From: Capnocytophaga canimorsus
GTDB taxonomy: Bacteria; Bacteroidota; Bacteroidia; Flavobacteriales; Flavobacteriaceae
NCBI RefSeq assembly: GCF_002302565.1
Contig: NZ_CP022382.1
Span: forward strand, 1,249,001 to 1,313,000
Direction: 5' to 3'
DNA: 64,000 nucleotides
Program-made: the position numbers and the translations under genes
Part shown: one piece after another, positions 33,382 to 59,712 of the stretch
How positions within the stretch are numbered: position 1 is the first letter of the stretch
Layout: every line of letters starts with the position of its first letter
Notes under the pieces: generated by a model
What the model was told of the DNA's origin: nothing
Databases searched by the model: none
Seen by the model: the letters and a program-made list of their open reading frames with translations, nothing else

Positions 33382-33405
33382 GTTTTCATTCACAGAAAAA
33401 CGACA

Positions 33406-34635
33406 TTACTTTTCTTTGACAGGCACCGGAGGTGGTGGCGGAGGCGGTAATTCCGTACTTTTTTTCATTTTGCCAACCGGTGTTGGAGGAGCAGGAGGCG
33501 GTGGTAATTCCTCAGCTTTTTTTACTCTGATAGCAGATGGTGGAGTTGGTGGCGGAGGCGGCAATTGTAAGCCATACTTCTTAGTAAAAGCCTCTCTTTC
33601 TGATTTATTGGTAATTTGCTCCACAATTTCATTACCTGCTTCATCTGTCAGAGTAACAGTTGTTTTTTCTCCTTTTCCCTTAAGACTTACACCTTCTACT
33701 CTTATTATTTTATATTTGGCAGATGCTTGTAAGGGAGAAACTTCTTTTTGTTTTTCCGCTTCTTGGGCGTAGCTTTTTTCGGCAAAAACCACAAGGAATA
33801 GAACACTTGTTGGGATAAGCAACGCCATTTTACATAAATTACGAAAATGATTTACTTTTGTTTGTAACATAATCAGACGTTTTTTGGTGTTGTAAAAATT
33901 GAAATAATTATAAAATGGGACATTTGCAGAAGCAGCTCTTTTGAGTATAAGCATTTGATATTCTGCAATATTTGTGTGTTTAGAAACCACACAAGCATCG
34001 GCTAAAAACTCGTGATTGATTCGGATAGCTTTCCCAAACAAATGCACCATAGGGTGAAACCAAAACACGATTTTCAAAAACTCGACAAAAAGCAAATCCA
34101 AAGAATGTTTTTGCCGAATGTGGGTCAGTTCGTGTAATAAAACTTTCTGTTCATAGGCATCTTTTTTATTGATAAAAATGTAATTCCAAAATGAATGGGG
34201 TGCACATTCTTCTTCCAAAATTACCAAATAAGCTCCTTCGTAAACTTGTTTAGGATGTTTTTTGATTTTATTGAAGATTTTAAGCAAGTTACGTAAGAAT
34301 CGAAATAGCATCAGAAACGCAATCACTCCATATAAACATATGATAATCAGATTTGTAAAGTCTTTAGTTTCTATAATCAATTGCTCTGTTGTTGGATTTA
34401 CGTAAATTGAGGAATTGTTAACTTCTTGTGTAACGACTGTTTTCTCGAATGTTTTTTCAAATATGAGTTGAAAAGGCATTTCAATGGTAATCAGCGGAAA
34501 AACAAACGAAGCTACCAAAGCCAAGAGCAAGAAAAACCGATTGAATATCAGCATTTTTTCTCGCGATAGCAACAAGTGATACAATGTGTAGAAACACATA
34601 CCACATAATAGCGTTTTGATAAGATACGGTATCAT
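33406..34635 (-). CDS. M56 (BlaR1-like) membrane metallopeptidase with proline-rich tail
   Basis: A 409-residue sensor-type protease. Transmembrane helices lie near residues 5-22, 33-50, 93-112 and 272-290; the zinc motif HELTH is at 168-172, with the downstream EFLADACV segment. M56/BlaR1 proteins sense a signal and cleave the partner BlaI/MecI-type repressor, here encoded directly upstream (1 bp gap). Unlike BlaR1 of staphylococci there is no penicillin-binding domain. The last helix is followed by about 115 periplasmic residues ending in three proline repeats (LPPPPPTPP, LPPPPAPPTP, LPPPPPPPVP, residues about 345-405), each spaced by a KK/KKAEE-type linker. The DNA of this tail is distinctly GC-richer than its surroundings. 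The inducing signal is unknown. Confidence 0.87.
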   Translation of the reverse strand: MIPYLIKTLLCGMCFYTLYHLLLSREKMLIFNRFFLLLALVASFVFPLITIEMPFQLIFEKTFEKTVVTQEVNNSSIYVNPTTEQLIIETKDFTNLIIICLYGVIAFLMLFRFLRNLLKIFNKIKKHPKQVYEGAYLVILEEECAPHSFWNYIFINKKDAYEQKVLLHELTHIRQKHSLDLLFVEFLKIVFWFHPMVHLFGKAIRINHEFLADACVVSKHTNIAEYQMLILKRAASANVPFYNYFNFYNTKKRLIMLQTKVNHFRNLCKMALLIPTSVLFLVVFAEKSYAQEAEKQKEVSPLQASAKYKIIRVEGVSLKGKGEKTTVTLTDEAGNEIVEQITNKSEREAFTKKYGLQLPPPPPTPPSAIRVKKAEELPPPPAPPTPVGKMKKSTELPPPPPPPVPVKEK

Positions 34636-56801: not shown

Positions 56802-58487
56802 ATGGAATGGTTTTTTAATTTGATGACTAATCACGAGAGTGTAGCCTACACCGTGATTGTTTACAGTGTTGTAATTGCTTTAGGAGTTGCCTTAGGGAAG
56901 GTGCGCATTGGAGGTATTTCTTTTGGGATAGCGTGTGTACTATTTGCTGGAATTGCTGCCGCTCATTTTGGTTTTACCGTAAACCACGAAGTACAACATT
57001 TTATAAAAGAATTTGGTTTAATCTTGTTTGTCTATACGATAGGTTTGCAAGTAGGACCAGGTTTTTTTGCCTCGTTTCAAAAAGAAGGGCTAAAACTCAA
57101 TTCTTTGGCAATTATAGCTGTTGTTTGCTGTGTGGCAACGGTAATCGCTATTCATTATCTGCTAGATATTGATATGCCTACACTAGTAGGGATTATGTCT
57201 GGTGCTGTAACAAATACCCCTGGTTTAGGGGCAGCTCAAGCTACCGTTACTGACCTTTCGGGAGGAACTATTTCAACTTCGGTGCTTTCTACCGGATATG
57301 CTGTAGCGTATCCTTTCGGGGTGCTGGGCATTATCATTGTAATGTTAGCAATGAAATCTGCTTTAAGAATCAATATCAATACAGAGAAACGACTTCATAA
57401 TTGGAAACATCACGATGACCAATCCTCTATCGCTCGTATTGCTATTGAAATAGACAATCCTGCATTGTTCGGCAAAAGACTTAGTGTGATTAACGAAACT
57501 TTGAATTTTAGTTTCATCATCTCACGGGTATTCAAAAGAAATACATCTGAAGAACATTTGGCAGATAACCAAATTATCCTTGAAGAAAAAGATGTGGCTC
57601 TGATTGTTTGTGATAAGAAAAACGTAGAAAAACTACTTAACCTAATGGGAAAACAAGTACAAGCGACAGAGTTTTTCTCTGAGGACGAAAAACAAATGAA
57701 AATCGTGTCACGTCGTATCAATGTCACTCAACGCAGTGCTTACACCAAAAAACTTTCAGAACTTAACGTACGTGGGCGTTTTGGGGTAACCATCACCCGA
57801 GTGTTCCGTGCTGGACTTGAATTTATTCCCAGCCCCAACACCAAGCTACAATTCGGCGATACCATTACCGTAATTGGCGATGAAGCAAGTATTCAATTGG
57901 TAAGCAAAGAATTCGGAAACTCCAAAAAGCGTATGCGTACTCCACACATTGCTGAACTTTTCTTAGGAATTACCCTTGGGGTTTTGGTAGGAAGTATTCC
58001 TTTCCATATTCCTGGCATTCCGGTACCTGTAAAATTAGGTTTGGCAGGAGGACCTTTAATTGTGGCTATTTTAATCAGCCGTTACGGAGGACGTTTATCC
58101 GTGACACATTACGTCTCGCAAAGTGCTAATTTAATGGTTCGCGAAATAGGTATTGTACTCTTTTTGGCAAGTGTGGGCTTAGATGCTGGAAAAACCTTTA
58201 TGGAGACCATTTTACACGGCGAAGGATTGTATTGGATGCTTATCGGAGCACTAATCACACTTATTCCACTTATCATCACGGCTTTAGTTTCCCGATTTAA
58301 CTACAAACTCACCTATTTGGAAACGTGCGGATTACTTGCAGGAGCCTCTACCGACCCACCAGCACTTGCTTTCGCTCACGATGTAACCAATTCTGACACT
58401 CCGGCACTTACTTATGCCAGTGTATATCCGCTCACTACCTTTATGCGGATTATGGTAGCACAACTACTTATCGTATTCTTTATGTAA
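56802..58487 (+). CDS. AspT/YidE/YbjL-family transporter with TrkA-C domains
   Basis: A 561-residue inner-membrane transporter of the aspartate:alanine exchanger (AAE) family. Two five-helix AspT-like membrane halves (about residues 15-190 and 380-561) flank a central soluble part with two TrkA-C domains (about 205-285 and 300-370: FGKRLSVINETLNFSF..., RGRFGVTITRVFRAGLEFIPSPNTKLQFGDTITVIGDE). Family blocks such as GLILFVYTIGLQVGPGFF, GIMSGAVTNTPGLGAAQ and CGLLAGASTDPPALAFA are visible, the latter two being internal duplicates. Substrate unknown. A TACCTTTG -7 element (56763-56770) lies just upstream and a terminator follows at 58515-58550. Confidence 0.9.
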   Translation: MEWFFNLMTNHESVAYTVIVYSVVIALGVALGKVRIGGISFGIACVLFAGIAAAHFGFTVNHEVQHFIKEFGLILFVYTIGLQVGPGFFASFQKEGLKLNSLAIIAVVCCVATVIAIHYLLDIDMPTLVGIMSGAVTNTPGLGAAQATVTDLSGGTISTSVLSTGYAVAYPFGVLGIIIVMLAMKSALRININTEKRLHNWKHHDDQSSIARIAIEIDNPALFGKRLSVINETLNFSFIISRVFKRNTSEEHLADNQIILEEKDVALIVCDKKNVEKLLNLMGKQVQATEFFSEDEKQMKIVSRRINVTQRSAYTKKLSELNVRGRFGVTITRVFRAGLEFIPSPNTKLQFGDTITVIGDEASIQLVSKEFGNSKKRMRTPHIAELFLGITLGVLVGSIPFHIPGIPVPVKLGLAGGPLIVAILISRYGGRLSVTHYVSQSANLMVREIGIVLFLASVGLDAGKTFMETILHGEGLYWMLIGALITLIPLIITALVSRFNYKLTYLETCGLLAGASTDPPALAFAHDVTNSDTPALTYASVYPLTTFMRIMVAQLLIVFFM

Positions 58488-58514
58488 CATTTTTTAGTGC
58501 GTTTTTATAAAAGG

Positions 58515-58550
58515 AAAACTCGGAATAAACCTATTGTTCCGAGTTTTTTT
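58515..58550 (+). terminator. terminator of the AspT-family gene
   Basis: AAAACTCGGAA (58515-58525) pairs with TTCCGAGTTTT (58537-58547) with an 11-base loop, followed by T to 58550. Confidence 0.85.
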
Positions 58551-58614
58551 ATTGAATTATGTCTGCTAAAAAACAACAGATTCAGCAACCTTTTTTAAAT
58601 TGCTGTTATAATTC

Positions 58615-58655
58615 TTACTTTAAAGAAAAGGTTATATCGTTATCATTTAAAGTAA
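58615..58655. repeat. inverted repeat before the 21-bp array
   Basis: TTACTTTAAA (58615-58624) and TTTAAAGTAA (58646-58655) are perfect 10-bp inverted copies with a 21-bp loop, which equals one period of the array that begins at 58704. Confidence 0.5.
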
Positions 58656-58703
58656 ATTGACTATACCACTTTGTAAATAAAAAATCTGTGCTAAAAAATG
58701 TAT

Positions 58704-58955
58704 TTTTACCAAAGTAAGATTATCTTTTATTAATTAAAAATTCTTTTTTACAGATAAGAAATTTAATTTTACCAATAGAATAATACTTTTTACTACTATA
58801 AAATGAGTTTTTACTGATAGAAAATTAAATTTTACAGATAGATAATAAGCCCTTACTGATATAAAATATAATTTTTATGCTAACAAATTTAATTTTACAT
58901 CAATAAAATTAAATTTTACTGATATAAAATTCAATTTTACGGATAAAAAATTATT
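58704..58955. repeat. array of twelve AT-rich units with exact 21-bp period
   Basis: Units start at 58704 and every 21 bp up to 58935 without a single indel. The pattern is TTTTAC-(T/A)-GATA, one variable base, then about AAAATT and two As. Clear copies are at 58746, 58809, 58914 and 58935; the weakest are 58725 (TTTTAT), 58851 (CCTTAC) and 58872 (TTTTTA). Adjacent copies make dyads such as AATTTTA-N6-TAAAATT. Read on the minus strand, each unit is seven codons of the form x-N-F-(I/L)-S-V-K, but TAA codons in the units at 58872 and 58725 break that frame. The array lies in the 594-bp gap between two convergent genes (58487 and 59082). Confidence 0.88.
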
Positions 58956-59006
58956 TATTCTTTAATCTTTGATTTATCAAATTATGGTCAAACATTAAAA
59001 AATAGT

Positions 59007-59039
59007 TGAGCCGAGTAAAACCTGTGCTTACTCGGCTCA
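59007..59039 (-). terminator. terminator of the plug-like gene
   Basis: TGAGCCGAGTAA (59007-59018) pairs perfectly with TTACTCGGCTCA (59028-59039) with a 9-base loop, followed on the minus strand by a T-run. Confidence 0.85.
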
Positions 59040-59081
59040 TTTCTTTAATTGATTTCTATTTCTTTTACAAGATATGGAATT

Positions 59082-59687
59082 TTACTTTTTAGTAGTTACC
59101 AAGATTACTGCTTTTTTATCTTTTGCTCCGTATTTTTCTAACGATTTTTGGTCTTTTAACACCTCTACCAAAAGTATTTTATTCGGGTCATAGGCTTGTA
59201 ATTCTTCGTGCGAAATCACTTTCCCGTCCATAATAACTAAAGTTTCATCAACAGACACCGAAGAATCTGTAATGGTGGATATATTTTGCTTATTTTCAGA
59301 TGTAGGAGCGTTTTTCATCTTAGTGGTTACAATAATAACTCCGTATTTTGCCTTTTCTCCATAAGTCTCAATGGCTTTTTCATCTTTTAAAATACTGATG
59401 TTTTCAATATTTTCGGGAGATAGTGCATTAAATTCAGTCAAGGTTACTTCCTTTTTATCAACAATTATCAAAGGTTCTTTGTAGGCGGTTTTAATTACGG
59501 GGTCTTTAATTACAAACGTTTTTGTTTCGATTGTTTTTACCTCCGGAGTTTCTTTGGAAGAGTCGTTCTTCGCTTTGGTTTCTTGTGCCTGAAGCGTGTT
59601 GTTTGAAAATAGGCATAAAATTGCTGTTGCTACCAACACCAGAGTAGCATAACTCCATTTGGCACGTACTGAGGATTGTTTTTTCAT
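59082..59687 (-). CDS. secreted protein with two TonB-plug-like repeats
   Basis: A 201-residue exported protein (signal peptide to about NTLQAQ, residues 12-33). Two copies of a plug-like motif follow: LSPENIENISILKDEKAIETYGEKAKYGVIIVTTK (about 90-125) and YDPNKILLVEVLKDQKSLEKYGAKDKKAVILVTTK at the C-terminus (about 167-201). The same unit is fused to the C-terminus of M56 proteins and to TonB receptors in Bacteroidota; here it is free-standing. The longer frame starts MTMKK at 59693; the ATG at 59687 is the likely start. It may interact with outer-membrane receptors. Function unknown. Confidence 0.75.
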   Translation of the reverse strand: MKKQSSVRAKWSYATLVLVATAILCLFSNNTLQAQETKAKNDSSKETPEVKTIETKTFVIKDPVIKTAYKEPLIIVDKKEVTLTEFNALSPENIENISILKDEKAIETYGEKAKYGVIIVTTKMKNAPTSENKQNISTITDSSVSVDETLVIMDGKVISHEELQAYDPNKILLVEVLKDQKSLEKYGAKDKKAVILVTTKK

Positions 59688-59712
59688 TGTCATATCAATT
59701 TAAATTTCTAAA

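Follow-up and report, generated by a model that had tools for sequence, protein, structure and literature searches.

The window, a stretch of 64,000 nucleotides of Capnocytophaga canimorsus DNA, contains a gap between two convergent genes: an aspT/YidE-type transporter gene on the left (56802..58487, plus strand) and, on the right, a 203-aa gene with SusC/RagA (TonB) plug-like segments (59082..59693, minus strand). Within this gap lies an array of twelve 21-bp units (58704..58955), described here on the plus strand, the orientation that points to the gene in relatives linked to the PQLLE protein family. As the first-pass annotation had it, the array stands between convergent genes, and both gene ends are borne out. 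An intrinsic-terminator-like hairpin of the right-hand gene (59007..59039, minus strand; 13 pairs, 6 of them G-C, with a T tail) lies between that gene and the array. Behind aspT, an inverted repeat with a T run (58517..58552, plus strand) was picked out by eye and is perhaps also a terminator, its loop being longer than the terminator scan allows and therefore unscored. Because hairpins flank the array on both sides, read-through into it from either neighbour is unlikely, and no sense-strand gene lies directly behind it. Elsewhere in the window, a weak 57-bp periodicity (33405-33580) falls within a 409-aa open frame.

Register of the window array

The first unit starts at 58704 and the last at 58935, at a constant spacing of 21 bp; their consensus is TTTTACTGATATAAAATTAAA. 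The strict register without insertion or deletion that had been proposed was confirmed by a leave-one-out test within ±10 bp, in which the best offset was 0 for 12/12 units. Mean pairwise identity among the units is 0.654, and the suggested comparison with random AT-rich DNA leaves this value well clear: an order-2 Markov null of the same stretch gave a mean of 0.335 and a maximum of 0.413 (2000 draws), or a maximum of 0.447 when maximised over periods 12-31 (1000 draws), and the remaining periods from 15 to 29 reach at most 0.437 in the array itself. Tandem Repeats Finder reported a 21-bp array (67% matches, 3% indels) and also a 63-bp array (72% matches, 6% indels); this program may place gaps, whereas the ungapped register test requires none. 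Two more degenerate units (58662..58703, plus strand), each with about 11 of 21 matches by eye, carry the register further to the left, and the array may begin there, at about 58662. Taken alone, the window array has a 10.5-bp harmonic of column conservation with a share of 0.47 (p=0.004).

A CRISPR array was rejected, as the units abut without unique spacers, and an Rfam search of 58400-59200 returned three matches, each below its family's gathering score. Inverted end units, present in several related arrays, are not clear here. The array is genuine and non-random, and it is a member of something larger than was first seen.

Related arrays in the genome and the genus

Four more arrays of a related unit were found in the same genome by BLAST, directly and in a second step. 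The window array matches an array at 171.9 kb (68% identity, E=1e-17) and another at 1841.9 kb, and the 171.9-kb array in turn finds arrays at 1585.4 and 817.7 kb. The array at 817 kb, which belongs to a PQLLE gene, has no direct BLAST match to the window and is linked through the 171.9-kb array; a weak but direct match joins the window stretch to the array of a PQLLE gene in genome G003 (L014; 68% identity, E=2.3e-4). We also built a sequence-only model, R1, from 18 three-unit stretches of seven arrays (four from this genome and one each from G003, G005 and G019). R1 recovers the four arrays of this genome used to build it, and its matches at the window and at the genome's own PQLLE array prove no kinship, both being in the building set. 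With 150 candidates scored per genome, R1 places same-unit arrays in at least 8 of 20 genus genomes, this one included; only G002, G004, G009 and G016 among the eight are independent of the building set, and in G009 there is one weak match, inside a predicted gene.

Behind aspT no array was found in 18 relatives or in the part of G015 available (369 bases), with a cut-off of 60% periodic identity and a scan of all lags across 900 bases and of those near 21, 42 and 63 across 1500; the highest periodic identity among the 19 relatives is 0.59, versus 0.76 in this genome. Absence from close relatives had been named as an observation that would count against the array; it holds at this site and fails for the array family, since genus genomes carry arrays of the same unit. 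At 1585 kb, an orphan site, the array is common to five genomes and absent in G005 and G017, with no array in the 305 bases available from G014. This patchy presence at both sites indicates that arrays come and go by site. Behind the array at the 1585-kb site (L255-L259) an open frame of 85 codons is present in three genomes and is shortened to 40 in G002 and G003.

A preference for convergent gaps, which had been put forward as something to check, was not borne out: only 5 of 31 listed array loci, the window's included, lie in such gaps. Several arrays have inverted units at the end nearest the downstream gene, arranged around a near-palindrome in the same 21-bp register (register by eye), and some sister arrays are overlapped by open frames of 41 to 105 aa. 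In two genomes an array is followed, after about 160 bp, by a barstar-like gene (L089:4524-4844 and L100:5448-5768); the Pfam match to barstar is that of the L089 gene, to whose protein the L100 protein is 88% identical. A phage collection searched with array DNA gave no match.

Arrays upstream of PQLLE and DUF6261 genes

Genes of one family, NCBIfam NF052641 ("PQLLE family protein"), begin 29-111 bp downstream of seven of the arrays, and most loci examined among PQLLE genes of the genus and their distant paralogues have 21-bp-periodic DNA upstream, with very different unit sequences. Three sets of loci were tested. The named set holds 59 of 71 loci from a scan of bacterial genomes, after removal of 7 short of upstream DNA and 5 partial matches; its Bacillota, Anaerolineae and Lentisphaeria loci come from metagenome bins and may be misbinned. 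A significant upstream array was present in 42 of these 59 loci (at lags of 21, 42 or 63 in 37, of 41 or 62 in four and of 54 in one) and absent from 17. The genus set, which shares loci with the named set, comprises 50 matches, 30 with loci and 26 tested (L112, L122, L125 and L132 were dropped; L121 is a 53-aa gene fragment), and 22 of the 26 have an upstream array: 18 at multiples of 21, 3 at 41 or 62, and one an unrelated 61-bp repeat. In the phylum-wide set (31 matches, 30 with loci, 22 tested after three duplicates from this genome and five short loci were dropped; two of the 22 are genes of the short PQLLE kind from this genome), an array lies within 1200 bp in 16 of 22 loci, all 16 at multiples of 21 and three of them above 60% GC. 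By the same test, no array was found upstream of control genes, either of aspT (0/20) or of a membrane-fusion-protein family (0/30), and control regions gave 3/51 downstream of PQLLE genes, 1/48 far upstream and 4/270 for tiles in the array loci. In G005 (contig 11) a PQLLE gene appears to be split between L109 and L121, at about 109 kb and about 164 kb, with the array and the first ~53 codons at one site and the remainder, oppositely oriented, 55 kb from it, a pattern as from an inversion breaking inside the gene.

Upstream arrays of 41-43 bp also reach significance in a second helical family, DUF6261, at 7 of its 14 genes examined, and the other 7 have no significant upstream array; some of these arrays, at 41 or 43 bp, are off exact helical phase. 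Homology between the two families was rejected by profile comparison (probability 0.8%). Both families are patchy, given the few genomes with a match (11 of 296 for PQLLE, 4 of them above the cut-off, and 3 of 99 for DUF6261). Separately, arrays of 42 bp were seen just upstream of PD-(D/E)XK nuclease-like and methyltransferase-like genes (L317:13787-14137 and L317:18913-19192).

One PQLLE protein was modelled with AlphaFold2: the confident model (mean pLDDT 92.8, pTM 0.78) is all helical, and its helix order occurs twice, each half with a 56-residue helix. Relatives of about 105 aa probably match one half of the full protein, by a weak alignment, and two such relatives in this genome also have arrays. 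A Foldseek comparison of the model with the PDB gave 0 matches at E<=0.001, and sequence comparisons with solved structures and with Pfam gave no convincing match. PADLOC and PHROGs, each searched with six proteins, yielded weak matches, none convincing, and phages and plasmids searched with one PQLLE protein yielded none at all. At the window locus itself, tblastn found no PQLLE gene or relic beside the array (no match at E<=1), and for this reason we call the window array an orphan.

Arrays were also sampled without PQLLE genes as a starting point, in 1.66 Mb from three genomes, window included. From this genome 864 kb were sampled, made up of the window and 40 evenly spaced stretches; of the 12 intergenic arrays there, 11 have a lag of 21, 42 or 63, one of the 11 with 7-bp sub-periods, and the twelfth has a lag of 43. 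The 400 kb sampled from G019 hold 11 intergenic arrays, 10 at 41, 42, 62 or 63 and one at 14/21. In 400 kb of G009 there are 23, a single one of which has a lag of 41; the lags of the other 22 differ from those above and are mostly 11, 16 and 22. This genome has many 11-, 22- and 16-bp intergenic arrays (L339-L358) in place of 21-bp ones. Genes of the PQLLE, short-PQLLE and DUF6261 kinds in the samples have an upstream array in 6 of 7 cases in this genome, 4 of 4 in G019 and 0 of 1 in G009, where the single gene is a PQLLE gene. Since G009, its sampled PQLLE gene array-less, has other periods, 21 bp is not a general slippage product of the genus. In the samples from this genome and G019, 13 of 23 intergenic arrays, the window's among them, adjoin neither a PQLLE nor a DUF6261 gene.

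A fixed period, a changing unit and their possible function

Across 48 loci, the units of PQLLE genes whose proteins are less than 40% identical are no more alike than chance predicts (0.51 observed and expected), and above 70% protein identity the unit identity reaches 0.72-0.74 (Mantel 0.36, null maximum 0.21), and opposite-strand unit matches make up 0-4% of pairs in every band of protein identity. With unit identity tracking protein identity and opposite-strand matches so rare, the unit sequence changes along with the protein, and the period, place and orientation are kept. Among 83 arrays chosen for a 21-bp period (arrays of 41 or 62 bp left out; 50 of the 83 in one single-linkage cluster), the 10.5-bp harmonic has the largest Fourier share of column conservation, 0.206, and over 29 clusters its share is 0.22 versus a maximum of 0.211 in 2000 AR(1) nulls. 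Repetition of half-units (10-11 bp) inside units is slight, with a mean excess of 0.012. Between fixed anchors, two sets of four orthologous arrays measure 126, 147, 147 and 168 bp, and 161, 182, 182 and 245 bp, so that lengths within a set differ by exact multiples of 21 bp. The persistence of the period across unrelated units, the 10.5-bp harmonic, a weak 3-bp harmonic (0.057, under the flat level of 0.1) and the whole-unit changes together point to a constraint on double-stranded DNA rather than on codons. The earlier proposal of selection on a spacing of two helical turns is thus supported by comparison, as unrelated units keep 21 (or 41-43, 62-63) bp together with the helical harmonic. 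The AATTTTA-N6-TAAAATT dyads described with it can be read by eye in the window and are not general to the array family: dyad symmetry reached p<0.05 in 2 of 83 consensuses of 21-bp units, where 4.2 are expected, and in 1 of 18 longer units, and was rejected as a common feature.

The median distance from the end of an array to the start codon, or to the start of the match, is 41.5 bp, and by raw count the sense strand is purine-rich in 51 of 58 arrays. Bacteroidota promoters follow a TTG/TAnnTTTG type and sigma-54-like sites a GGCA-N6-TGC pattern; with these patterns, 10 full promoter matches, overlapping ones included, were found upstream of arrays at 6 of 46 loci and none inside or beyond the arrays, and 35 of the 46 loci have no promoter match upstream. 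Sigma-54-like sites lie upstream of the array in five loci and inside it in one; those before arrays of PQLLE genes are at L104, L107, L108, L110 and L126. Since the promoter matches lie ahead of the arrays, it is probable that some arrays are transcribed as leaders. From the position of the window array between two gene ends, a promoter role had been judged unlikely; for this type of array in general, neither a promoter nor a leader role can be called unlikely, as many members lie just upstream of a gene and the promoter matches found precede arrays. For either strand the mean RNA folding z-score is about -1, which is not decisive for RNA structure as a common feature.

Our preferred reading, held tentatively and at somewhat less than even confidence, is that the window array is an orphan of a phased family with a period of two helix turns, bound by protein as double-stranded DNA. 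It draws on the register, the related arrays, the association with PQLLE genes against controls, the tracking of protein identity by unit identity, the helical harmonic and the whole-unit changes; position, register, unit turnover and a single orientation relative to the gene are observed features of the family. Such an array would work as double-stranded DNA, each unit showing the same face to a protein that would bind cooperatively along it. The simplest candidate binder would be the product of the adjacent gene, which would then regulate itself through a unit specific to each paralogue. The window copy would have lost its gene or arrived without one, and might still bind a PQLLE protein whose own array resembles it; it may be a functionless orphan or a remote binding site. 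Counted against this reading are the lack of a structural match for PQLLE, the sampled arrays beside neither family, the non-dyadic units, the PQLLE and DUF6261 genes that have no array, the 41- and 43-bp periods of DUF6261 arrays and the missing PQLLE relic at the window, along with the promoters before arrays and the sense-strand purine richness, which an RNA-level role explains equally well.

Such a role, in which the array is a transcribed 5' untranslated region whose repeats bind the encoded protein or set its translation, with some likeness to type III toxin-antitoxin repeat RNA, and the window copy is a dead remnant, would fit the short distance to the start codon, the purine bias and the promoter placement. 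Single-stranded RNA, however, needs neither a 10.5-bp harmonic nor a 21-bp register across unrelated sequences, the folding scores are much the same for the two strands, and a terminator-like hairpin divides the window array from the right-hand gene, and perhaps another, seen by eye, from the left one; we regard it as unlikely. Another rival, in our estimate rather doubtful, is a minisatellite, selfish or neutral and without function for the host, that would spread and be replaced by whole units in the manner of BrickBuilt. The sporadic sites, orphan arrays, whole-unit length changes and inverted end units of several arrays are what it would produce, whereas the PQLLE association set against the control genes, one period across unrelated units with a helical harmonic, and a register held despite about 35% divergence between window units are not. 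That the array decayed from a heptapeptide-coding repeat on the minus strand seems highly improbable. The NFISVK frame does have two stops, as had been stated, 21 is 3 x 7, and the open frames across some sister arrays are consistent with coding, but the window array has stop codons in all six frames, a 3-bp harmonic is missing from the family, and the 41- and 62-bp periods of relatives refute coding as a general explanation.

Several known systems bear comparison with these arrays. In type III toxin-antitoxin loci (ToxIN), too, a small protein gene has tandem repeats immediately before it and in its own orientation; they differ in their endoribonuclease partner, where we have 21-bp units, an all-helical partner model and a helical harmonic. 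ToxI units are about 35 nt. For the window array, a type III system was rejected, as there is no sense gene directly behind it and the PQLLE model is all helical, with no convincing match in Pfam, PADLOC or solved structures. Iteron arrays of replication origins and phased operators are direct repeats of about 21 bp that a protein reads on one helix face; unlike iterons, the window array, on a contig the size of a chromosome, has a transporter gene and a plug-like gene as its neighbours, and the genes that follow related arrays are uncharacterised, each paralogue having a unit of its own. BrickBuilt of Porphyromonas gingivalis (also P. gulae) is a minisatellite MITE of one 23-nt unit family with a leader and a tail bearing terminal inverted repeats, and 5 of its 19 elements adjoin PorSS C-terminal-domain genes (PMC4596501). 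Our arrays resemble it in belonging to Bacteroidota, in their many intergenic copies, in being imperfect direct repeats without spacers, in expanding and contracting by units and in being gained or lost between strains, and differ from it in the 21-bp period, the many unrelated units and the PQLLE linkage (PMC4596501).

A literature search of open-licence papers found no account of 21-bp arrays paired with PQLLE genes. Beyond the phased-array reading of the window, we consider it possible, if on the doubtful side, that these arrays form an undescribed regulatory class of leader arrays, which would keep only their two-turn spacing while the unit is replaced along with the adjacent paralogous protein. 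A single genome would then hold many parallel, mutually insulated protein-array pairs, and orphan arrays such as the window's would be remote targets. If this is true, fixed-period 21-bp minisatellites and a helical PQLLE family annotated without function would become one testable pair, and nature would have supplied a set of protein-DNA pairs that differ in specificity but have one geometry.
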